Part shown: positions 215 through 13,300 of the stretch, piece after piece
Position numbering within the stretch: the stretch's first letter is position 1
Layout: each line of letters opens with the position of its first letter
DNA from: a virus
Virus record (IMG/VR): IMGVR_UViG_3300047564_001377
Span: 1 to 21,548 of that record
Reading direction: 5' to 3' (one strand)
DNA length: 21,548 bases
Translations under genes and position numbers: made by a program
Notes under the pieces: generated by a model
Seen by the model: only the letters and a program-made list of their open reading frames with translations
What the model was told of the DNA's origin: nothing
Databases searched by the model: none

Positions 215-394
215 ATGAAATACTTACTTTTTCCTATACTTTACATAATCTGGACTTTAGACCGTTTATTTTGTGCCCTATTGCCACACACCGAACACCC
301 TAAATTTAAAGATTTTTTTCCTAGTTGGAATATAGTTAAATTTGCGTTGGTAAGAGTATTAATTTTAATTTTGTTGGTATGGATTTTCATTTAG
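215..394 (+). CDS. Small membrane protein, 59 residues
   Basis: The product has a hydrophobic N-terminal segment (about residues 4-23), a short polar loop containing HTEHPKFKDFF (25-35) and a strongly hydrophobic C-terminal segment (about 42-59), so it probably crosses the membrane twice. It is the first gene after the promoter at 74-104 and its leader. Its last 16 bases overlap the start of the ParB-like gene, which suggests coupled translation. Size and topology would fit a holin-like or membrane-anchoring protein, but no family is recognised and its place before the packaging genes is not typical for lysis. The reading frame and overlap are seen directly; function is unknown. Confidence 0.6.
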   Translation: MKYLLFPILYIIWTLDRLFCALLPHTEHPKFKDFFPSWNIVKFALVRVLILILLVWIFI

Positions 395-1703: not shown

Positions 1704-1777
1704 CTGGATTGTTAAGCGTGCAACCATTACACTAATATCGCATTTGATTTTACAAATATAATAAATTATTTTAAATA

Positions 1778-2152
1778 ATGGCATACGATAAGAAAAAAAT
1801 ACACGAACAGGCAAAGGAAGTAATTGTAAAACATAAGCTTTTTTTTATTGAGGATATTGTTGCTTTTTTACCATGTGATAAAACAACTTTTTATAGATTT
1901 TTCGATATTAATTCCAACGAATACAACGAGCTAAAAGAATTACTGGAAACAAACCGCACCGAATTAAAGGTGTCTATGAGGTCAAAATGGTACAAATCCA
2001 ATAGCCCAGCTTTGCAAATGGCTTTAATGAAGTTGATAGGAAACCAAGAAGAATTAAGGAGGTTGTCAATGCAACATATCGAACAAAAACAAACCAACAT
2101 TGATTTATCTGGGTTAACTACTGATGAAATTAAGAATTTGCTAAATGAATAA
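1778..2152 (+). CDS. terS: Terminase small subunit (candidate)
   Basis: A 124-residue, highly charged helical protein directly before the large terminase, which it overlaps by 8 bases. The N-terminal part (about 10-50) looks like a helix-turn-helix, with KTTFYRFF at 36-43 as the likely recognition helix. Residues about 55-105 are helical, as expected of the oligomerisation region, and the C-terminus (TTDEIKNLL) may contact the large subunit. The small subunit would recognise phage DNA and start packaging. The call rests on position, size and the DNA-binding pattern. The 74 bases before it hold no clear promoter, so it is probably read from the upstream operon. Confidence 0.75.
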   Translation: MAYDKKKIHEQAKEVIVKHKLFFIEDIVAFLPCDKTTFYRFFDINSNEYNELKELLETNRTELKVSMRSKWYKSNSPALQMALMKLIGNQEELRRLSMQHIEQKQTNIDLSGLTTDEIKNLLNE

Positions 2153-3485
2153 AAAAGAAGCAATAAAGGAACTATTAAGGGCGGAACTCTCAAGAAGAAA
2201 TTTTTGGGAGTTTTGTTTATTTTATGATGGGGAATTTTTCCAAAAACGAATATTTTTAAAGAAAGTTGCGGACGCTTTCCAATTAATAGAAGAGGGTAAG
2301 ATTAACAGCTTATCTGTATCAATGCCACCAAGAGCGGGTAAATCGTATATAACGACTTTGTTTAGCGCATGGAGTATTGGCAAAACACCGCAAGAAAGTA
2401 TAATGCGAAACACCTGTACAGCTACTTTATACCTTAAATTCAGTTACGATGTTAGAAATGTAGTAAAAACCGAAAAGTTTTCCAAAGTATTTCCAGATGT
2501 AAGATTGTCGGATGATAAGGCAAATCTTCAAGGTTGGAATACAAATTATAGTAAACAAGTGGGTTATTTCGGTGCTGGTGTTGGTGGTACAATTATCGGA
2601 TTTGGAGCTACTAAGTTAGCAATTACGGATGACTTGTATAGAGGTGTTGAAGATGCAATAAGTGATAATAGCAACGATAAGATTTTACAATGGAAAGAAG
2701 CAACCCACGATAGTAGATTAGAGCGTAATTGTAGCCGAATTGATATTGGAACACGTTGGAGTGTTAAGGATGTTATCGGTCGAAATATGGAAGAAAATAG
2801 GTACGATTTAAGTATTGTAATTCCAGCACTAGACAACAATGGTAAATCCTTTTGCGAGGACGTAATGAGCACCGAGCAATACGAGGAAATACGAAGCAGA
2901 ATAAACCCCGATATTTGGAGCGCGGAATACATGCAAGAGCCAGTCGATTTAAAAGGTAGGTTGTTTAGTGGTTTAAAAAAGGTGCAAACTATTGATAAAA
3001 CTAAAATAGAGGGCTATGTGGGCTATATTGACGTGAGCGACCAAGGTGCTGATTTTACAGCAATGGTTATTGGTGGAATAATCGGCAACCAAGTGTATAT
3101 TGTTGATTATGTATTTACCCAAGCAAACACCGATATAACACTTCCTTTATGTGCTGAAAAATTAAATCAATGGGGGGTAAAGTATTGTAGGGTAGAGAGT
3201 AACAACATGGGGGCAATGTTTAGCCGACAATTGCAGAAATTAACTAAAACGCAAATCTTACAGGTAAACAATACTACCAACAAGATTACAAGGATTATAA
3301 TGGAGAGTGCCTTTATTATTAACTCCTTTCATTTCTTAGAAATAAATAATATAAATTATCATCAATTTATAAGTAATGTAGAGAGCTTTAGCAAGGAGGG
3401 TAAAAATAAACACGACGATGCACCCGACTGTTTATCGGGTTTAGCAACGTTTATTCGTGGATTATTTCCTAGAAATTTTTTTTAA
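2145..3485 (+). CDS. terL: Terminase large subunit, ATPase/nuclease
   Basis: The packaging motor, 446 residues, a normal size. The N-terminal ATPase domain has Walker A MPPRAGKS (60-67) and Walker B KLAITDD (157-163). A coupling-type motif probably lies near IDIGTRW (199-205). The C-terminal RNase H-like nuclease shows YIDVSDQGADFTA (294-306, first metal ligand D296), RVESNN (349-354, E351) and KHDDAPD (422-428), the expected acidic residues of a two-metal nuclease. All key residues are present, so it looks functional. Its TAA stop (3483-3485) overlaps the stop of the portal gene, which reads toward it, in a shared TTAA. There is therefore no room for a terminator between the genes and convergent transcripts should overlap. 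Confidence 0.95.
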   Translation: MNKKEAIKELLRAELSRRNFWEFCLFYDGEFFQKRIFLKKVADAFQLIEEGKINSLSVSMPPRAGKSYITTLFSAWSIGKTPQESIMRNTCTATLYLKFSYDVRNVVKTEKFSKVFPDVRLSDDKANLQGWNTNYSKQVGYFGAGVGGTIIGFGATKLAITDDLYRGVEDAISDNSNDKILQWKEATHDSRLERNCSRIDIGTRWSVKDVIGRNMEENRYDLSIVIPALDNNGKSFCEDVMSTEQYEEIRSRINPDIWSAEYMQEPVDLKGRLFSGLKKVQTIDKTKIEGYVGYIDVSDQGADFTAMVIGGIIGNQVYIVDYVFTQANTDITLPLCAEKLNQWGVKYCRVESNNMGAMFSRQLQKLTKTQILQVNNTTNKITRIIMESAFIINSFHFLEINNINYHQFISNVESFSKEGKNKHDDAPDCLSGLATFIRGLFPRNFF

Positions 3486-4864
3486 ATTTGTTGAGGTGGT
3501 TTAACCTCTATACTTGATATAATTGCGCTCGATTGTTCCCTAGAAATACCAAACGATATAATTAATATTTCGATAGCAGATTGAGGGGTTAAAATGCCAC
3601 TTGAAACAGCACTTGCAACTTCAACCATAGAGGTAACTTGTGCACCATTTAAAGCCTGTACAACTCGTTCTTGTTCCTCTTTAACTGGATAGCCTAATTC
3701 TAATCGTGCCTCACTTGTATCGATTATTCCTTTTTCCACTAAACTAATTATTTCGGTTGATTTTGTATTCATATCATCCTGTAAAACCGCAATATGCGAA
3801 AAATCAGGCTTTAAATACAATCCTAAAGCGGTTAAACCTAACTGTTGGCTAATAGTTGCGTACATTTGTTCAGTTTCGGGAATAATAGTATCTTGATAAC
3901 CCATACGCATTGCTTGTTTTACTTCGTTACCATTTGCTAAAGTTCCACCATTTACATTACTGAATAAATTGTAACTTAATCCATAAGCATCACAAATTGC
4001 AATTTTATCTTCCGTTAATTCCTCGAACAACATTAAATCTTTAGTAGGGTATGACATAGGCGTCCAGCTAACATCCGCCTCAGTCATAACTAATTTATCC
4101 TTTGACCTCCTCAACCAATCTTGTCTTATTTCGTCTTTCTCTTCGGGTGTCATAGGTAACGAGCCACCCATATCCGATTTCTTACTTGATAAAATACCGA
4201 TTGCACCCATGTTTTCCAAAATAACATTACGTTTATTGTAGGTTGCCATGATATTGGATAAAGGGTATTTTAACGTATCAATCCTATTTATCGAATTGAT
4301 TAAATTAATACCGTCGGGGGTGTTCATGTACACCATATCTTGTAATTCGATTTTCTCCATTTTTTGGCTATCATACCAAAATTCAAAATTTTTAATCAAT
4401 CCCTCTTTGTCGATTTGGTTAAGAAATTTTCCTGTACCAACGATTTTAACCTGATTTGCTGGTAAAGGCATAATTAAATTACGAATATCAAAGCTTCTTT
4501 TCGGGCAGTAAGCAAATGAATTGTTAAATAAACCATCGTTTACAGCCAACGAGTAAACAACATCCGACCAGCTTTGTGTAGGGTTCGGATTATTGATTAA
4601 ATCCAACATCCAATGGCTCTCAATAATATTACCCTCTTTATCACAAAGTACAGGTTTGCCACTACTCATCATAATAGCACGTTTATTAATTACTGCCCTT
4701 AATTCGGGAATTGTAATGTATAAATCATATGGTTTATTTGTATCTACCCATTGTGGCTTAGTATTCCCCCAAAATTGGTTAGTTGTTCGTTGTATCATTT
4801 TCAACAAGTTATCATTCTTACCACTTGTTGCGCCAAAAACCGAAGTCCAAAAATTATTATTCAT
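3482..4864 (-). CDS. Portal protein, encoded on the minus strand
   Basis: A 460-residue protein of the HK97-type phage portal family, the dodecameric ring at the capsid vertex through which DNA enters and leaves. Typical features include PELRAVINKRAIMMSSGKP (53-71), a segment around NDGLFNNSFAYCPKRSF (108-124), the region with EELTEDKIAICDAYG (about 281-295), SNVNGGTLANGNEVKQA (302-318) and the C-terminal helical part. Gene order (terminase, portal, protease, capsid) is normal, but the orientation is not: every other gene here is on the plus strand. The ORF is intact, with an ATG at 4864-4862. Transcription must come from the 66 bases before the protease gene or beyond; no perfect -7 box is seen on that strand (nearest TAATTTTA, bases 4892-4885). 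Confidence 0.93.
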   Translation of the reverse strand: MNNNFWTSVFGATSGKNDNLLKMIQRTTNQFWGNTKPQWVDTNKPYDLYITIPELRAVINKRAIMMSSGKPVLCDKEGNIIESHWMLDLINNPNPTQSWSDVVYSLAVNDGLFNNSFAYCPKRSFDIRNLIMPLPANQVKIVGTGKFLNQIDKEGLIKNFEFWYDSQKMEKIELQDMVYMNTPDGINLINSINRIDTLKYPLSNIMATYNKRNVILENMGAIGILSSKKSDMGGSLPMTPEEKDEIRQDWLRRSKDKLVMTEADVSWTPMSYPTKDLMLFEELTEDKIAICDAYGLSYNLFSNVNGGTLANGNEVKQAMRMGYQDTIIPETEQMYATISQQLGLTALGLYLKPDFSHIAVLQDDMNTKSTEIISLVEKGIIDTSEARLELGYPVKEEQERVVQALNGAQVTSMVEVASAVSSGILTPQSAIEILIISFGISREQSSAIISSIEVKPPQQI

Positions 4865-4880
4865 ATTTTTTTTTAATGTT

Positions 4881-4912
4881 TTGGTAAAATTACGTATTTT
4901 TACGTAAATTTG
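4881..4912 (+). promoter_or_regulatory. Bacteroidota-type promoter for the capsid operon
   Basis: TTG at 4881-4883 (in TTTTGG) is followed after 21 bases by TAAATTTG (4905-4912), a perfect TAnnTTTG -7 box. Predicted transcription start is about 4917-4919, 12-14 bases before the protease ATG at 4931. A promoter is needed here, because the transcript of the inverted portal gene cannot serve the capsid genes. The 13 bases at 4900-4912 are identical to those at 92-104. Confidence 0.7.
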
Positions 4913-4926
4913 CGTATAAAACCGTA
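4893..4926. repeat. Four CGTA motifs with exact 10-bp spacing (putative operator)
   Basis: CGTA occurs at 4893-4896, 4903-4906, 4913-4916 and 4923-4926, one DNA helical turn apart, so all face the same side of the helix. The first two are within palindromes (TACGTA at 4891-4896, TTACGTAA at 4900-4907). The array covers the -7 box and predicted start of the capsid promoter and lies between the divergent portal and protease genes. This suggests a binding site for a regulator; which protein binds is unknown. Confidence 0.45.
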
Positions 4927-4930
4927 TTTA

Positions 4931-5665
4931 ATGAATAAAAATTTTACTCAATACAAGACTAAAAGCGTTACCGAGATTAAGGATTTATCTTTGGGTAAGC
5001 GCGAGGTTGCTATGTATTTAAGCAAATTCGGTGTGTTGGATAGTGATAATGATATTATTATAAAAGGTGCTTTTAAGCGTAGTTTAATGGATAGGGGTGT
5101 TGATAGTGCTAGTAACAGGAAGATAGCGTTTTTACGTTACCATGATTGGCAGCATCAAATTGGTAAATTTATTCGATTGGAAGAGGACGATTTAGGTTTA
5201 TTTGCAGTTGGTAAACTTTCAACATCAACAAAGGGCGAGGATGCTTTAAGAGATTATGAAGAGGGAATAATTAAAGAGCATTCAATAGGCTTCCAGTACA
5301 TGACCGATAATATCCGTAAGGTTGGCGACAATTTCGAGATATTCGAAGTTAAGTTATTCGAGGGTTCTGCGGTTACCTTTGGAGCTAATGAAGAAACGGA
5401 AGTATTAGCTATTGGGAAAAGTGAAAATAAAATCCAATTAGTAGAAAAATACGCAAAAGAAATTGAAATAGTCACAAAATCATTGATAAATGGTAAAGGC
5501 ACGGATGAACGTCTTTACAATTTGGAAATGAAGTTAAAATACTTAAATTCTCGATTAGTTGACCTTGCAATGATGCCGACAGTTACAAGTCCCAAAGCTG
5601 AAAGCCCCGAGCAAGTTAATGTAAAATCACAATTTAACTGGGACAAATTAAATAAATTAATGTAA
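4931..5665 (+). CDS. HK97-family prohead maturation protease
   Basis: A 244-residue protein whose first 160 residues match the phage prohead protease family (serine protease, herpesvirus-assemblin type fold). Candidate catalytic residues are H71 in FLRYHDW and S118 in EHSIGFQ, with the conserved LFEGSAVTFGAN (142-153) after them. The C-terminal 80 residues are charged and helical and may act as a scaffold, as no separate scaffold gene is seen. I chose the ATG at 4931: an in-frame TTG at 4910 lies inside the -7 box and upstream of the predicted transcription start. The protease would cut the N-terminal part of the capsid protein made from the next gene, 18 bases downstream. Confidence 0.9.
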   Translation: MNKNFTQYKTKSVTEIKDLSLGKREVAMYLSKFGVLDSDNDIIIKGAFKRSLMDRGVDSASNRKIAFLRYHDWQHQIGKFIRLEEDDLGLFAVGKLSTSTKGEDALRDYEEGIIKEHSIGFQYMTDNIRKVGDNFEIFEVKLFEGSAVTFGANEETEVLAIGKSENKIQLVEKYAKEIEIVTKSLINGKGTDERLYNLEMKLKYLNSRLVDLAMMPTVTSPKAESPEQVNVKSQFNWDKLNKLM

Positions 5666-5683
5666 ACTTAAAAATCAAAAACA

Positions 5684-6910
5684 ATGCAAGAAAATGAATT
5701 AACACCCGAGCAAGTGGTGGCAAAATTTGAAGCGAAAATAGGCGAAGCGACTAAAGGTTTAGTTGGTGCAGCTGAAATGGACGCTGTAAAATCGCAATTA
5801 TTAGCGGTTAAAGAATTATCTGAAAAAAACAGCGGTTCGCATGAATTAAAAGCAAAAATGGTAGAACTTGAAAGTTCTGTTTTGGCTTTAAAAGAAGTTG
5901 CTAAAAATGCACCGCAAAGGGCAAAAACTTTAGCAGGGATTTTATCCGAAAAATCGGCTGAAATTAAGGAAGCGTTAAAATCAAACAAAAAGTTTGAAAT
6001 CGCTATTAAAGCGCAACAAGACCCAGCGGATATTGGTACACGTACCGATTACGCTACTTTCTTACCGAACACAGTGTTTAAACCTGTAAGAGCTACAAGG
6101 ATTATCGATTTATTCCGTCGTGTTCCTGTTTCAACAGAGTATGTGAAATATCGTGAAGAAGATACAGTTACTAGAGATGCTAAAGTAGTTGTGGCTTGTG
6201 CTACTTCAACAAGTAACACGAAAAAAACGTGGGTTACTAGAACTGTTCAAATCCAAAAAATCCGCGATTTCGTTGATGTATGTTTGGATATGATTGATGA
6301 TTACGCGTTCGTAGCTTCAGAAGTTGAGCAATTGGTTAACCAATCGGTTAAATTAAAAGAAGATAGCGAAATTTTGTTAGGTTCGGGTAATATTTTATCA
6401 ATTGATGCTATTGCGTCCGAGTTTGACCCTGCAAACGTTTTAGCTCCTTATACTGGTGCATTTCAAAGTGCAACTTTAGCCGAGTTAACTGCTGCAATGA
6501 AAGCGCAAATTTACACTTTTGGACAAGAAAACAGTTGGAATGCTGATACTATTGTAATGAACTATAACGATTACGTTAAATTCATGCACCAAAAAAACAG
6601 CGAGGGCGACTATTTATTACCTAATTTCGTTATGAGCGGTGACGGAATTTTAAACGGTATGCGTATCGTAACACATCCGTCAGTAGGAGCTAACACTTTA
6701 TACGTGTTTGATAGTACAAAAGGCGAGATTTTGGACAGACAAGGAGCTACTTTAGAAATGTCTTACGAAAACAACGATAATTTCGAGCACGAAATTGTAA
6801 CGTTAAAAGTAGTTGAAAGATTACAGTTCCATGTGGCGCAAATAAACCAAGATGCTTTTATGAAGTGTACGGATATTGCACAAGCGTTAACTGATATTAC
6901 AGCTATTTAA
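5684..6910 (+). CDS. Major capsid protein, HK97 fold
   Basis: The 408-residue shell protein. Residues 1 to about 105 are charged and helical with many Ala, Glu and Lys, like the delta domain that the prohead protease removes. From about 117 (GTRTDYATFLPN) the sequence has the pattern of HK97-type capsid proteins: RRVPVSTEYVKYREE in the E-loop region (145-159), a long helix around 190-225, and a C-terminal domain containing NADTIVMNYNDYVKFM (286-301) and GMRIVTHPSVGANTLYVFD (324-342). Cleavage probably falls near residue 100-115, but the exact site cannot be read from sequence alone. A hairpin terminator 204 bases after the gene suggests that it is made in excess over the genes that follow. 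Confidence 0.92.
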   Translation: MQENELTPEQVVAKFEAKIGEATKGLVGAAEMDAVKSQLLAVKELSEKNSGSHELKAKMVELESSVLALKEVAKNAPQRAKTLAGILSEKSAEIKEALKSNKKFEIAIKAQQDPADIGTRTDYATFLPNTVFKPVRATRIIDLFRRVPVSTEYVKYREEDTVTRDAKVVVACATSTSNTKKTWVTRTVQIQKIRDFVDVCLDMIDDYAFVASEVEQLVNQSVKLKEDSEILLGSGNILSIDAIASEFDPANVLAPYTGAFQSATLAELTAAMKAQIYTFGQENSWNADTIVMNYNDYVKFMHQKNSEGDYLLPNFVMSGDGILNGMRIVTHPSVGANTLYVFDSTKGEILDRQGATLEMSYENNDNFEHEIVTLKVVERLQFHVAQINQDAFMKCTDIAQALTDITAI

Positions 6911-6921
6911 TCAATTAAGCC

Positions 6922-7140
6922 ATGAAGAAAGTAAAATTAATTAGAGATTTTAACGGTAAGAAGAAAGGCGAGGTTATCGAGGTAACAGAAAGCCAATCTT
7001 ACTTTATGTTAATGAACTCTATTGCTGTTTTATCGGAATGTGGCGCAAATTGTGAAGAAGAGTGTAAGGAGTGTAAAAGCACTAAAAAGAAAAAATCAAC
7101 TGCAAAAATTAACACCCCCTCTATTACTGAGGGGGTTTAA
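6922..7140 (+). CDS. Small protein with SH3-like N-terminus and cysteine cluster
   Basis: A 72-residue protein directly after the capsid gene. The first 40 residues (KVKLIRDFNGKKKGEVIEV at 3-21) resemble small SH3-like proteins often found at this place in phage genomes. Residues 40-51 hold four cysteines spaced C-x3-C-x3-C-x2-C, followed by a lysine-rich tail (KKKK at 56-59). The last residues NTPSITEGV are encoded by the terminator hairpin at 7114-7136, so this tail is probably dictated by RNA structure rather than protein function. Possible roles are capsid decoration or head assembly; metal binding by the cysteines is a guess. Confidence 0.7.
   Translation: MKKVKLIRDFNGKKKGEVIEVTESQSYFMLMNSIAVLSECGANCEEECKECKSTKKKKSTAKINTPSITEGV
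7114..7138 (+). terminator. Hairpin terminator inside the 3' end of a gene
   Basis: ACCCCCTC (7114-7121) pairs perfectly with GAGGGGGT (7129-7136) around a 7-base loop. The T-run after it is short (TTT, then AATAA), so termination is likely partial. The hairpin codes for the last residues of the small protein above, and the stop TAA is at 7138-7140. It would reduce transcription into the connector genes after the capsid gene. Confidence 0.65.
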
Positions 7141-7151
7141 TAAACTGAAAA

Positions 7152-7664
7152 ATGAGCCTACTTAATATCACGTTTAACGACTTCGGAAAAGGTAAATATG
7201 AGCTTCATAAGGGAATGTATGAGAGCACTAAAATACAGGCTTATATTGATAAGTACGAGCGTCAATATCTTGTAAAGTTATTGGGTGCAGAATTATTTAA
7301 AGATTTTAGTGCCGATTTAGTAGCTGGTGTTCCTCAAGATGCTAGGTATTTAGCCATATTTGAAGCCTTTGAATATGATGATGTTAATTGTACGGTTTAC
7401 ATTTCGGAGGGTATGCTTGAGATGATTAAAGGATTTATTTATTTTCAGTATCTTAAGGATTTAACAAATACGGTTGCTGTTAGTGGAAATGTTCGACAAA
7501 TGGGCGAAAATTCCGAGAATGTAAGTAGTTTAAATAGTATGATTTATACACGTTATAATGAAGCTGTAAAAACTTACAAGACTATACAGAAATTTATTTG
7601 TGATAATTCAAAGGATTACTTGAAATTTAATGGAGTAAAGGTATCTTACGCAAACTGGATATAA
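7152..7664 (+). CDS. Head-tail connector/adaptor candidate
   Basis: A 170-residue, mostly helical protein between the capsid and tail-tube genes, where siphoviruses encode the adaptor that binds under the portal. The segment YERQYLVKLLGAELFKDF (35-52) and a following helical part (about 85-105, MLEMIKGFIYFQYLKDL) look like Bacteroidota phage proteins of the DUF6712 type, thought to be gp6-like connectors. This is family-pattern memory and position, not a strong motif. Its TAA overlaps the next ATG by one base (TAATG), suggesting translational coupling. Confidence 0.6.
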   Translation: MSLLNITFNDFGKGKYELHKGMYESTKIQAYIDKYERQYLVKLLGAELFKDFSADLVAGVPQDARYLAIFEAFEYDDVNCTVYISEGMLEMIKGFIYFQYLKDLTNTVAVSGNVRQMGENSENVSSLNSMIYTRYNEAVKTYKTIQKFICDNSKDYLKFNGVKVSYANWI

Positions 7665-8341
7665 TGGAAGCAAGTGAGTATGTACGCGATTTAGTTGAAG
7701 CAATGAACAATAGTGTTAATGGAAGTTATGACCCCATTACTAAGCACTTTATTACTTGCAATACTAAATGGGCGCGTGTTGGAAAACTTGTAACGGATGA
7801 AGAAGAAAACGAATATTTGATTAAGGATGTAAGCACGGATAATTACGTAGAGTTACAAGCCTTAATAAATGGCAATGAGCCAACAGATATTATTTACTTA
7901 TCTAATCCTTTTTTCATTACAGGAACGAAGATTGCAACTAACAACGAATGGACAATGGTAAGTCCTGATTTAAGCGAAAAACTACCTTTAATTTGGTTAT
8001 TGGAAGTTATCAGCGAAACAGGATATGGCAAAATGTCTTCAATTGAAAAGGATATGCAATTACGATTGTTTTTCTTAGATGAAACAGACCCGAGCCAATA
8101 CTACACTAAAGACCACCGCGAACAAGTTGTTAAACCTATGCAAAAGTTAATGGATGAATTTTTAAGAGTTGTCGAGCAAAACCGAAAATATAAAACAGTT
8201 GAAAATTTCACTTACAAAACTTTTTCGCGCTTTGGTGTTGAAAACGATAAAGGAGTGTTACAAAACGTATTAGATGCCAATTTATCGGGAGTTGCATTGG
8301 AGTTGAATTTATCCCGATATAAAGAAAATTGTAAATGTTAA
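7664..8341 (+). CDS. Head-tail joining or tail terminator candidate
   Basis: A 225-residue protein that starts on the last base of the connector gene and ends 12 bases before the tail-tube gene. Its N-terminal half is rich in beta-strand-type sequence and the second half (about 110-170) has PLIWLLEVISETG and then a helical segment with HREQVVKPMQKLMDEFLRVV (150-169). It ends in NCKC. Similar proteins occur in Bacteroidota phages in this place, but I know no proven function. Position favours a neck protein (stopper, tail completion or tail terminator). Confidence 0.5.
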   Translation: MEASEYVRDLVEAMNNSVNGSYDPITKHFITCNTKWARVGKLVTDEEENEYLIKDVSTDNYVELQALINGNEPTDIIYLSNPFFITGTKIATNNEWTMVSPDLSEKLPLIWLLEVISETGYGKMSSIEKDMQLRLFFLDETDPSQYYTKDHREQVVKPMQKLMDEFLRVVEQNRKYKTVENFTYKTFSRFGVENDKGVLQNVLDANLSGVALELNLSRYKENCKC

Positions 8342-8353
8342 AAAACAAATAAA

Positions 8354-9259
8354 ATGACAGGATGTAATTGTAATGTTGGTTTATCCAACACAGGAAGACC
8401 GAATTGGGTACCTCTTTTTGGTATCACTTCGAGCTTAATTTTAGTGCCTATTTTTGATAACGATAGCGTTAAAAATGGAATTGATTTATCTACTACTTTG
8501 CCAACATGGTCAAATTTAGTAAATCAATCGGATGCTTCAAAGCGTTGGTTTCCTTTACCAGCTTTTGAAAATGTTGAATTACCTAAAGCAGATAGCCAGT
8601 TTGAAGAAGCAAACTCGGGTAGAATGGTATTTTTGCGTCAAGGTAAAAGGTCTTTCGCTGGGGAATTATGGGCAGAAGATAGCACACCAACATTATTAGG
8701 TAAATTGCAAAATTCAAGATGCGTTGACTTTGGGGTTTATGTAGTTGATGTAAATGGTAATTTGATTGGTTCAGAGGTAGGAGGGTATTTATATCCAATT
8801 CCAGTAGATAATCAATCGTTTGACCCAAAATTTGCGTTTGCTACCGATAGCACAACTCAAAAGATTATGCTAGGTTTTGACTTTGACCGTTTATTCGATG
8901 AAAGTACAATGTACATGATTTGTGTTGAAGAAGCTGGTATTGATTTTACTACTTTAGAGGGTTTAAAGGATGTAAATTTAATCAGTTTAGCTTCTACAAC
9001 TACGGTAGCAACTTTTAGCGCGAAATTAGACTATGGTACTGCTGTAAACAAAATTAAATATGTTGGCGCAGACCAGTTAGCTGATTGGAGTATTACGAAT
9101 GTAACGGATAACGATACTTTTGCACCTGATAGCGTTACAGAAACTCCAGACGGTACATATTCGTTAAACTTTGCGACTAACACGGCTACTGCTGGGGATG
9201 TAATTAAAGTAAGCGTTTCTAAAAATGGTTTTTCGGGTAGTGCAACGGTAACAGTATAA
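8354..9259 (+). CDS. Major tail (tube) protein with C-terminal Ig-like domain
   Basis: A 301-residue protein. Residues 1 to about 200 form the tube domain candidate, beginning with an unusual Cys-x-Cys (C4, C6) and containing strand-rich sequence such as GRMVFLRQGKRSFAGELW (88-105). From about 205 the sequence changes to a bacterial Ig-like or Big_2-type domain with alternating Val/Thr/Ser (ending DVIKVSVSKNGFSGSATVTV). Ig-like domains at this position are common in phage tail proteins and are thought to decorate the tube and help it bind carbohydrates. Size, domain order and position after the connector genes and before the tape measure support the call. Confidence 0.78.
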   Translation: MTGCNCNVGLSNTGRPNWVPLFGITSSLILVPIFDNDSVKNGIDLSTTLPTWSNLVNQSDASKRWFPLPAFENVELPKADSQFEEANSGRMVFLRQGKRSFAGELWAEDSTPTLLGKLQNSRCVDFGVYVVDVNGNLIGSEVGGYLYPIPVDNQSFDPKFAFATDSTTQKIMLGFDFDRLFDESTMYMICVEEAGIDFTTLEGLKDVNLISLASTTTVATFSAKLDYGTAVNKIKYVGADQLADWSITNVTDNDTFAPDSVTETPDGTYSLNFATNTATAGDVIKVSVSKNGFSGSATVTV

Positions 9260-9420
9260 TGAAGCTAGGACGTACCACGTTTGATATTGAAAAATTAAAA
9301 GGTATAGATTTGGAGGTTGCTATTAGTAACCTCCATAATGTACCCGAAAAATTTGTAAAAAAAGCGTGGGAAAAAGCAAACCCAAAAACACCAGTAAAAA
9401 AAACACGAAAAACCAAATAA
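9259..9420 (+). CDS. Small basic protein, 53 residues
   Basis: Starts on the last base of the tail-tube stop codon (TAATG at 9257-9261) and ends directly before the terminator at 9421. The product begins MKLGRTTFDIEKLKG and ends in a lysine/threonine/proline-rich tail (about 41-53), giving a strongly basic protein. The start-stop overlap and the exact fit between two features argue that it is translated. It is in a different frame from the tail-tube gene; I see no slippery sequence that would make a fusion. Function is unknown; its location between tube and tape measure would allow a tail-assembly role. Confidence 0.6.
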   Translation: MKLGRTTFDIEKLKGIDLEVAISNLHNVPEKFVKKAWEKANPKTPVKKTRKTK

Positions 9421-9449
9421 AAGAGGGGGCGAAATGCTCCCTTTTTTTT
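9421..9449 (+). terminator. Strong intrinsic terminator after the tail-tube block
   Basis: AGGGGGC (9424-9430) pairs with GCTCCCT (9436-9442), with one G-T wobble, around the loop GAAAT. The stem can extend into flanking A/T bases, and T8 follows at 9442-9449. It begins immediately after the stop codon at 9418-9420. It would limit transcription of the tape measure and baseplate genes relative to the tail-tube gene. Confidence 0.85.
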
Positions 9450-9450
9450 G

Positions 9451-9458
9451 TACATTTG
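9451..9458 (+). promoter_or_regulatory. Possible -7 box (TACATTTG) after the terminator
   Basis: TACATTTG is a perfect TAnnTTTG match, 2 bases beyond the terminator T-run and 8 bases before the ATG at 9467. No TTG is found at the expected distance upstream (the terminator stem lies there), so it is only half a promoter. If active it would give a nearly leaderless transcript for the distal tail genes. Confidence 0.35.
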
Positions 9459-9466
9459 TAAGTATT

Positions 9467-9910
9467 ATGATTGGAAAAACTGCAATTGATGTTTTGTTAA
9501 GAAAAAACGTATTACTAATGGACGTGGTCACATGGTTTGAAAGCCATGATGCACAACTAAAAACCATGATTATTAAGTTAATTCAAGATAAACAATTGAT
9601 TGAAAAAGGTGTTGATAGTCAAGGTTTACAAATAGGCACTTATAGTTATTGGACTGAAATATTAAGCGAGGGCAGAAAGCAAGAGGGCGACCCCTACGAT
9701 TTGAACGATACAGGGGAATTTTTTCGCTCGATGTTCGTGCAAGTGCTAAGGGATGGTATAGTAATAAATGCCGATTACGCAAAAATGCAAAATCAGGATT
9801 GGTGGGATTTGAACATTTTAAATTTAACAGAGGAAAATTTAAGTAAATATGTGGAAAAAATTAAAGAGAATTATATCATTTATGCCCGAAAAGTATTGGG
9901 GCTCGATTGA
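9467..9910 (+). CDS. Tail completion/gp10-like candidate
   Basis: A 147-residue protein. The recognisable part is around GLQIGTYSYWTEILSEGRK to GDPYDLNDTGEFFRSMFV (about 53-90), where the DTGEFFRS segment recalls HK97 gp10-like or minor tail proteins that complete the neck. Residues 95-105 (GIVINADYAK) and a helical C-terminus follow. I chose the ATG at 9467 because earlier in-frame codons from 9434 lie in the terminator hairpin. Its last 62 bases overlap the next gene. In most siphoviruses such a gene comes before the tail tube, so either the order is changed or the call is wrong. Confidence 0.5.
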   Translation: MIGKTAIDVLLRKNVLLMDVVTWFESHDAQLKTMIIKLIQDKQLIEKGVDSQGLQIGTYSYWTEILSEGRKQEGDPYDLNDTGEFFRSMFVQVLRDGIVINADYAKMQNQDWWDLNILNLTEENLSKYVEKIKENYIIYARKVLGLD

Positions 9911-10322
9911 TGAAATGCCACTTTACAACTGGATTAAATGTAACAACGGACAATTGGAGTATGTGAGGAATGGAAGAGGGAATAAAGCGAATGATGTAAT
10001 TAATTGGATGCGGTTGTATAACGAATATTTAGCCACTTTCGGACTAGATAAACGGTATAAGAAGTATTTGGAAGTAAAACGTAAAAAAGCTTTATTACAA
10101 GCAGAATATGTAATAAAAAAAGATAGATTTAAACTTACTGAAATAGATATACAGGACGCAAAATTAAAGGATTTAGAGGTGCATTTTGGCGACGGTAAAA
10201 GCATTGAAACAATATTAATGTATTTATCTATGTATTTAGGATACAAATTAAACCCAAAAGAAACAACAGTTAAAGAATATTTTACAATACTAAACGAATA
10301 TGGCAAATCAAATAAAGCGTAA
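9849..10322 (+). CDS. Tail assembly chaperone candidate
   Basis: A 157-residue protein just before the tape measure gene, the usual place of tail assembly chaperones. Residues 21-28 (DEMPLYNW), then a helical, basic middle part (about 55-105) and a C-terminal part ending in KEYFTILNEYG. I recall Bacteroidota phage proteins with a comparable IYNW-type N-terminus before the tape measure gene. Starts at 9849 (62-base overlap with the gene before) or 9882 (29-base overlap) are both possible; 9849 leaves an N-terminal extension like that of related proteins. It overlaps the tape measure gene by 23 bases. No canonical G/GT frameshift is visible. Confidence 0.5.
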   Translation: MWKKLKRIISFMPEKYWGSIDEMPLYNWIKCNNGQLEYVRNGRGNKANDVINWMRLYNEYLATFGLDKRYKKYLEVKRKKALLQAEYVIKKDRFKLTEIDIQDAKLKDLEVHFGDGKSIETILMYLSMYLGYKLNPKETTVKEYFTILNEYGKSNKA

Positions 10323-13300
10323 CGAAATAGCTGAGGAGGATTTATACAAGGAAATCCGACAGTCTGCTGAAGATACAATTAAAACAGTAAATGAGTTGAA
10401 CGAAAGTTTGACCAAAAGTGCTAGTGTTTTAAAAACCGAGTTAAAAAAACCGTTGGATAATACTATCGAAAGCATAGATGACTTGCAGAAGCGTACCGAA
10501 GAAATGAACGATTTAACAGAGAAACAGTTGAAACTTGATAAAGCAAAAGCCGATGCTGTTAAGAGCCAAATTAAGGCAGATGAAAAACTACGTAAAATAG
10601 AGCAAGAAAGGATAAAACTAAAAAAGCAGCTAACAGACGCTACGGATGAAGAGGTAAAGGCAAAAATTAAGTATCAAAAAGTAAGCGCGGAACAAAAAAA
10701 GATTTTAGCGGATGAAATAATCCTGAACGACGAAAACGCTGGGACACTCGAAAAAGTAGCTGCGCAAAGTCGTATCTTAAGAAGAGAGCGCGAAAAATTA
10801 AACCTTGAAACAGTAGAGGGCAAAAAACGGCTAAAGGAAATTAACGACCAGTTGGATGAAAATAACGAAATTATTCGCGAAAATTCCGATGCTTTAAAGC
10901 AACAAAAATTAAATGTTGGTAATTACACCGATAGTATTAAGGAAGCAACAGGGGAGCTAGGTGGTTTAATTGGTGGGATTAAGGATAGTATTGATGCGCT
11001 TAAGGGACAAGTTCAACAATTTGTTGTGTTAGGTAAAGCGGCAGATACGGCACGGAAAAAAATGGAGTTGTTTGGGAAAGCAGGTAAAGCTCTAGGTATT
11101 GGTGCGATTATAGCCTTGTTGGGTTCTATGGTTTCTGCAATGGCTGATACTAATCAAGGAGTTCGTACGATGCAAGGTCTGATGCAAAAAGCAATGGCTA
11201 GTGTTACTATGTTCGGAAATATTGCAAGTGATAAATTTGATATTTTAAAATTAAAGCTTGAAGCAATGCAATTAAAATTTGAGGAAATTTTTAACGGCTT
11301 TGGCACAACCCCACAAATTCAAGAAAGGTTAACGGCTATTGGGTTGGAAATTGAAGCAATAAACAAAAAGGAATATAAGCCAAAAGATATGATACAATCA
11401 ATTAATGATGTAATTATAAAACAACAAGAATATGAGTGGCAAATAGCCAAAACAAGCGAGGAAATAGAGCGTTTAATGGGGAAAGAAGAATTATTAAGCG
11501 AAAGAGCTGGGGATGGGACTATAAGTTTTGATAAGCAAAGAAAAGCACAAGAGTTATACAATCAAACGGTTGTAAAACGTATTGCATTGGAAAAAGAATT
11601 GTTATCTGCTAATGTTGATAACGAAGCTTACAAGGTTAGGGCAAGATTAATATCTGCTGGTTTTGATTATTCACTTCAACAAATTAAGAATTTGGAGTTT
11701 ATGAATAATGAAAAAGCGTTGTTATCTGCTAATAATGAGGAAATTTTAGCTTTAAGCGAAGCTAAAACACAGTTAATTGCAAAAGATAACGAGTTGGCTA
11801 GTGCTTTAGCGAAAAACGCAATGGAAGCAAGGAATACGGCTAAGGATGATTTTGAAAAACAATTGGATTACGCAATAGATTTATTTGATGTAGAAAAAAC
11901 AATCCATGAAAGGCGAATAAATATGGAGCGTACAACTTTGGCAGATCGCAAAAGATTAACGGAAGAGGTGGAAAGATTAGCCGATAGTTCGTTCGCTAAT
12001 CAAGTGGAATTAGTACAAAAATACACTAAACAAATGATTGACTTTACCGAAATAATGAAGTCCAATGATGAAGCAGAAATACGTTCAATGTTGAATAAAT
12101 ACGATTTGAATGAAACTACTTTGACGCGGATAATGGAAATGATTAAAGAGCGTAAATTAGTAGAGCAAGATTTAGCCGATTTGCAGTTAGAAAATGCTTT
12201 AAAACAAGTTGAATTAAACAAGGCAGTTGCCACAAGCATACAGGCAATAGATGAAGATAATTTGAGTTTAAGGATTGAAAAAGCTGAAAGGGAGTTTGAT
12301 ATAGAAAAACAGTTGGAAGATAGAAAATTGATTTTGCAAGATAAAACTTATGAAAATTTAAAATTTCAATTGGATGAAATTAAGAAGCTGAAAATACAGC
12401 AGTTAATGGATATTGCATATTTTGAGCGCGAAACAGCCGAGCAAGAAATTATCGAGCAAGAAGAAAAAACTAAGAAATTAGAGGAAATTAACAGCAAATT
12501 AGCGAATGATATTATCCGTTTGGAAAATGAAACAGCGGACAAAAAGCGCGAGATTGGTTTAGAGGAATTGGAAAATGAGCAGGAATTGTTGGATGTAAGG
12601 CGCGAAATGGTTTTGAATGGGATACAATCGTTAACAGATATTACCAACGAATTAGCTGATAAAAGAATTGCGAAAATTGATGAAGAAATTGAAGCAAGTC
12701 AAAGGCGATTTGATAGTTTGCAATCGTTGGCTGAAAGTGGAAATATTTTGGCACGTGAAAGCATGGCAGAAGAAGCAAAATTAATGGCTGAACAAAACAG
12801 AAAACGCGAACAGGAAGAAAAAAGGAAGCAAAGAATACAGTTAGCAAGTAGTGTTTTACAGGCTTATGTAACGAATTCAAACAACCCACAAGTAAAAAAT
12901 CCGTTGCAAAAAACAATCACAGACACGGTGTTATTGACTGAATTTATAAAATCTTTACCAGCCTTTTTCGACGGTACGGAGGACACAGGAAAAAACGGAA
13001 ATGGTATCGACAATAAAGGCGGTTTCCTATCTGTTCTGCACCCTAATGAAAGGGTAGTAACTGCTAGGCAAAACGAATTAATCGGAGGTATGAGTAATGA
13101 AGAATTAAGCAAATTGGCTTACAACTATCAAAACGGTATGATTAGGCCAATCACAGATACAGCATTAAGCAACGGATTTGCTGGGGTTGAAATTTTGGCG
13201 AAAAAGTTGGATAGTTTGGAGCGCACTATTGCGAATAAACCTGAACACACTATACAAGTGGAGCAAATAATAGGGGGTGCAATGGCTATCACTAGGAATA

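Follow-up and report, generated by a model that had tools for sequence, protein, structure and literature searches.

In tailed phages, the genes for the head normally share a direction of transcription, and one portal ring is needed per head. A search of the literature for inverted portal genes yielded a relevant case in the P2-like phages only: in the Burkholderia phages KS14 and KL3, the P-Q genes (terminase and portal) and the O-N-M-L genes (scaffold and capsid) form divergent units (PMC3091744). Divergent transcription of portal and capsid genes is, then, already known from P2-like phages.

The window analyzed here, the entire stretch of 21,548 nucleotides from an uncultured virus recorded in IMG/VR, resembles these phages in that the portal gene is transcribed away from the scaffold/protease-capsid unit and the starts of the two units face each other across a short gap. 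In the P2-like phages, however, the gene for the terminase ATPase is on the portal strand and adjoins the gap, whereas in the window the portal gene alone is turned and lies tail to tail with the gene for the large terminase subunit (terL). The pairing of the terminase ATPase with the portal that characterizes the P2-like divergent units is not found in the window, where terL is codirectional with the capsid genes. Furthermore, the late promoters of P2 are activator-dependent, whereas the present phages carry plain sigma-A -7 boxes.

These boxes are identical to the consensus of the sigma-A -7 element of Flavobacterium psychrophilum, TAnnTTTG, which is located at -12 to -5 (PMC9723704), but no clear, conserved -33 element was found with them (none was consistent across 25 aligned gaps). 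The other relevant comparison is with the bidirectional promoters of Escherichia coli and Salmonella described by Warman, Grainger and colleagues, in which the -10 elements coincide on the two strands and the transcription starts are 7 to 25 bp apart, mostly 18 (PMC10268837, PMC12825309). The likeness consists in a pseudo-symmetric core that is predicted to be able to drive divergent transcripts. In contrast to the bacterial promoters, the phage gap typically contains two complete TAnnTTTG boxes side by side, with 2 nt between them, and, assuming the Flavobacterium spacing, about 27 bp are predicted between the starts. We therefore do not file the gap as a member of the E. coli type, although it would work like one.

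Among cultured phages, Flavobacterium phage 11b and Polaribacter phage Danklef_1 encode homologous portal, protease and capsid proteins in the same order, portal-protease-capsid, but their portal gene is on the strand of its neighbors. The portal gene is likewise co-directional in the cultured outgroups and in gut contigs, and an inverted portal is unusual compared to those cultured Bacteroidota phages that we looked at.

The head module of the window

The head module has the order terS, terL, portal, protease, capsid, and the portal gene is the only one of these on the minus strand. The terL gene (2145-3485, plus strand; PHROG 38, E = 6.5e-74; Pfam PF22530) points in the same direction as the capsid genes, namely those for the S78 prohead protease (4931-5665, plus strand, ATG at 4931; PF04586, E = 6e-21; PHROG 80) and the major capsid protein of the HK97 fold family (5684-6910, plus strand; PF05065, E = 5e-20; PHROG 10). 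The inverted gene (3482-4864, minus strand) encodes a portal protein of 460 amino acids (Pfam Phage_portal, PF04860; PHROG 12 and 2662). The anatomy given in the preliminary description holds throughout: the coordinates, the strand and the intact frame of the portal gene are correct, its stop codon overlaps that of terL in a TTAA (3482-3485), and the short T-runs at the two ends are direct repeats. The same 4-base overlap is present in the closest relatives. On the other side, the start codons of the portal and protease genes are separated by a divergent gap of 66 bp (4865-4930), the length and near-identical sequence of which are kept in the nearest relatives.

The match to PF04860 covers residues 77-390 with a score above the gathering cut-off (E = 1.2e-26), and the portal profile matches solved portals of the HK97 family (6tba, E = 3e-6); the AlphaFold2 model is of low confidence (pLDDT 57) and too poor to serve as a search query. 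The frame is intact and evolves under purifying selection comparable to that on the neighboring genes, with dN/dS ratios of 0.06 to 0.14 against five relatives (dS 0.75-1.5). The C-terminal 60-70 residues (about 390-460, as seen in the comparison of the window with L028) are present or absent among close relatives, and the same holds for co-directional portals, so that this region appears as a mobile tail extension.

Upstream of the head module, a ParB-like gene (379-978) is followed by a Mom-family DNA-modification gene (957-1703; PF25680, E = 2e-45) directly upstream of the terminase genes; several relatives (L086, L095 and L134) have Mom-family profile matches at the corresponding position. 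Two TAnnTTTG boxes (337-344 and 366-373, plus strand) precede this ParB-Mom-terS-terL block and are likely its promoter region. Searches of the window for Rfam families and tRNAs yielded nothing.

Portal orientation among relatives

Scanning viral contigs with terL and portal queries produced 155 distinct portals of at least 280 amino acids with an assignable orientation, 81 of them inverted and 74 co-directional. An inverted portal is common in this large group of uncultured phages, and thus the possibility raised at the outset, that many relatives with the same orientation would make the arrangement ordinary for its group, turned out to be the case. All relatives with a portal identity of at least 75% are inverted. 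In the portal tree of the thinned set, a branch with a support of 94 separates the inverted rows, together with three co-directional ones (L134, L147 and L178), from 32 co-directional rows; a clade of inverted rows alone is rejected (AU p = 8.7e-6), and at least three changes of orientation are needed on the thinned tree and at least four on the full one. Given a single inverted side with co-directional exceptions and the rejection of the strict clade, these data indicate one old inversion followed by at least two returns, and orientation tracks phylogeny over the 81 inverted portals, in agreement with the initial suggestion of an old inversion. Separate inversions in the lineage of the window (lineage A) and in a second lineage (B; L040-L063) were also considered but became unneeded after loci were added (one clade, AU p = 0.79).

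The inverted state spans deep divergence, with portals about 50% identical: lineage B, which is inverted, has about 47-50% portal identity to the window, and most members of a third group, the one around L165 and L188, are inverted. The inverted portal of L165 and the co-directional portal of L178 are 80% identical, and the co-directional exception L134 is backed by the contig L231, which has the same terL-portal arrangement. When distant gut phages (25-30% identity) are used as the outgroup, the root falls on the co-directional side, which weakly suggests, with a polarity that hinges on these distant outgroups, that the co-directional state is ancestral. In the terL tree, the inverted rows appear in three places; hence, an exchange of terL and portal may have taken place, or else the terL tree may be poorly resolved.

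Among the inverted relatives, the terL-portal gap ranges from -14 bp to about 3 kb: in the nearest relatives within lineage A, the two stops touch or overlap, and in others they are 0.5-3 kb apart. Given this wide variation, the phages do not depend on an antisense overlap of the two stops. An insertion hot spot is located at the 3' ends of the two genes. By eye, HNH-type homing-endonuclease-like genes are found in the interval on the portal strand (L042, 2769-3314; L047, 7475-7954; L045, 5269-5748) and on the terL strand (L124, 3766-4101; L138, 1144-1479); in L119, L124, L127, L138 and L084, terL is separated from the inverted portal by small genes that form a cluster of 2-3 kb on the terL strand. 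In L060, about 650 bp (6680-7332) without an open reading frame of at least 55 amino acids lie between the two genes, the corresponding gap in its close relative L058 being 95 bp. A second rearrangement of the head module is seen in lineage B, where the major capsid gene is located downstream of the homologs of the two genes that follow it in the window (7152-8341).

Among genome contigs, a host search gave one close match (46% identity, co-directional), the contig being binned to Rhodobacteraceae, together with three distant matches in Bacteroidota. Judging from the promoter boxes and the nearest phages, the host phylum is probably Bacteroidota.

Promoter boxes and a palindrome in the divergent gap

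We counted TAnnTTTG boxes located within 55 nt upstream of start codons in loci clustered at 80% identity, with shuffled sequences as the expectation. A box precedes the portal gene in 28 of the 36 co-directional clusters (shuffle mean 2.1, maximum 7) and in 32 of the 40 inverted ones (shuffle mean 2.4, maximum 8), the loci being related, so that these and the following counts measure conservation rather than independent origins. The boxes are concentrated 21-35 nt upstream of the portal start, mostly at equal distances in both orientations. Within the same 55 nt, terL has none (0/46 co-directional and 0/20 inverted clusters) and the capsid gene hardly any (0/44 and 1/41). Since the box recurs ahead of the portal in both orientations and hardly ahead of the capsid gene or terL, a separate transcription unit is predicted to start with the portal in either orientation, and promoter and gene would therefore flip together.

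The protease gene of the inverted loci is preceded by a box as well (17/24 clusters, 1.6 expected), compared to only 13 of 47 co-directional clusters with a box at the portal/protease junction (2.2 expected). These 13 include L079, L166, L205 and L210, the sister group of the inverted clade in the outgroup-rooted tree, as well as all three returned rows, L134, L147 and L178. Such a pattern, an association seen post hoc, would be expected if the flip could be tolerated owing to a second promoter upstream of the protease. In the co-directional L178, TAAATTTG precedes the portal and TATTTTTG the protease, and in its inverted sister L188 each of these genes is preceded by the box that it has in L178, with the two boxes now back to back, which fits a promoter moving with its gene.

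In the window, the putative portal box is TAATTTTA (4885-4892, minus-strand reading; 7/8 matches to TAnnTTTG), 20 nt before the portal ATG, a position that agrees with the exact boxes of other inverted relatives. The candidate -7 box of the protease-capsid unit is TAAATTTG (4905-4912, plus strand; 8/8), 18 nt before the ATG at 4931. A scan for sigma-70-type promoters and terminators around the portal gene gave nothing above chance. The motif TTACGTAAATTTG, initially taken for a repeated late promoter, has two copies only (at 92 and 4900) and was replaced by the -7 box reading; the copy at 92-104 is identical to 4900-4912 and lies upstream of the first gene block (region 87-104).

In the inverted state, the portal and protease boxes usually stand back to back and form an 18-bp palindrome, CAAAnnTA-NN-TAnnTTTG. 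This rule was taken from the first loci and fixed in writing before the newly fetched loci were analyzed. Among the new inverted loci, 17 of the 21 unique gaps score at least 11/12, with 0.12 expected from dinucleotide shuffles, and the upstream regions of co-directional genes, used as controls, gave 0 to 3 matches of 69-91. The four misses comprise L189 and L221, where both boxes are present but the spacer measures 1 and 4 nt, respectively; L215, with its boxes face to face like those of lineage B; and L214, in which the start is misplaced. Eight contigs (12-36 kb) carry an exact palindrome, each as a single copy located in the gap; the palindromic gap is conserved, unlike its surroundings. 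The window itself has a degenerate version, TAAAATTA-CG-TATTTTTA (4885-4902; 10/12 matches, shuffle p = 0.015), embedded in a stretch (4885-4912) that reads TAAAATTA (4885-4892), CG, TATTTTTA (4895-4902), CG and TAAATTTG (4905-4912), so that 12 nt separate the outer boxes, which exceeds the usual spacing of 2 nt by 10.

Origin of the inverted portal

The probable scenario, to which we give considerable confidence, is a single ancestral flip of the portal gene together with its own promoter, which left a divergent pair of -7 boxes driving the portal against the protease-capsid unit. The ancestor would have had a portal unit with a sigma-A type TAnnTTTG box about 30 nt before the start codon; in the ancestor of the window, promoter and gene would have been turned in place, once, between terL and the protease, at a time when the protease-capsid unit presumably already had its own -7 box. 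Portal expression would have survived the flip because the promoter turned with the gene, and the arrangement would then have passed to a broad clade, in which the portal reverted to the co-directional state at least twice. The preliminary description had proposed that the inversion was kept by selection for separate control of the portal. The separate promoter is supported, but co-directional relatives also have the portal box; with the box present in both orientations, separate control more likely permits the flip than was selected for.

An assembly or binning artefact, conceivable for a record from an uncultured virus, has a negligible probability in view of 81 distinct inverted portals and of gap-free alignments over 9-10 kb: a second record is identical to the window across 10,206 bp, and a record with 89% identity is collinear with it, unbroken, from 1776 to 10862 (9.1 kb), so that the portal does not sit at an assembly breakpoint. 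The suggestion that the portal is switchable, with both orientations coexisting within one phage population, could draw on the presence of both orientations in the group, on the at least two returns and on the one pair at 80% identity. Yet, all relatives at 75% portal identity or above are inverted, dS to relatives of the same orientation is 0.75-1.5, and the inverted state also differs in the spacing and sequence of the gap. Only short, imperfect inverted repeats were reported across the portal gene; its borders carry no long ones and do not resemble invertase sites, and no invertase or recombinase family is found among the window proteins scanned; we regard a switch as highly improbable. Neutral drift, in which gene order is loose and orientation meaningless beyond having a promoter, comes somewhat short of an even chance. 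The very variable terL-portal gap, with its inserted HNH genes and small-gene clusters, and the returns to co-direction speak for it; against it, the inverted state has lasted through deep divergence, the palindromic gap is kept while its surroundings change, and no head gene besides the portal is inverted among the loci listed. Drift concerns persistence and is compatible with the flip of promoter and gene; neutral persistence of the inverted state is possible, and no benefit for stoichiometry emerged in any test run, so that any advantage of the inversion would be a matter of inference.

The palindrome itself could serve chiefly as an operator, bound by a dimeric regulator of the phage or the host that would switch the two units together, its likeness to back-to-back -7 boxes being secondary. 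The perfect two-fold symmetry, the nearly fixed 2-nt spacer, stricter than two independent promoters require, and the single copy per genome at the divergent gap are in line with this reading, which we nonetheless consider unlikely. Each half-site matches the sigma-A -7 consensus exactly, and co-directional portals are preceded by the same box, alone and at an equal distance; broken palindromes can keep both boxes at other spacings (1 nt in L189, 4 nt in L221 and 12 nt between the outer boxes of the window), and the boxes survive face to face in L215 and lineage B. A promoter pair is most likely, and the palindrome may also serve as an operator. As a divergent promoter pair, the outward, back-to-back boxes would start transcription of the portal in one direction and of the protease, capsid and tail genes in the other. 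The site should have room for a single RNA polymerase only, and therefore the two units would be co-regulated and competing; in E. coli, when a bidirectional promoter is strongly activated in one direction, the opposite direction can be repressed (PMC12825309). The further step, a palindromic, truly bidirectional sigma-A promoter with a single polymerase site that would set the ratio of portal to protease/capsid transcripts by competition, is a tentative one that we would sooner doubt than accept.

Implications

These phages offer a natural experiment in which the same portal is found both ways, with at least two returns, a pair of opposite orientation at 80% identity and a short conserved site. 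A promoter carried along with its gene would account in a simple way for the ability of a single essential gene to flip, and with the palindromic gap, promoter symmetry would extend to a phage element that is conserved and has boxes of the Bacteroidota type.
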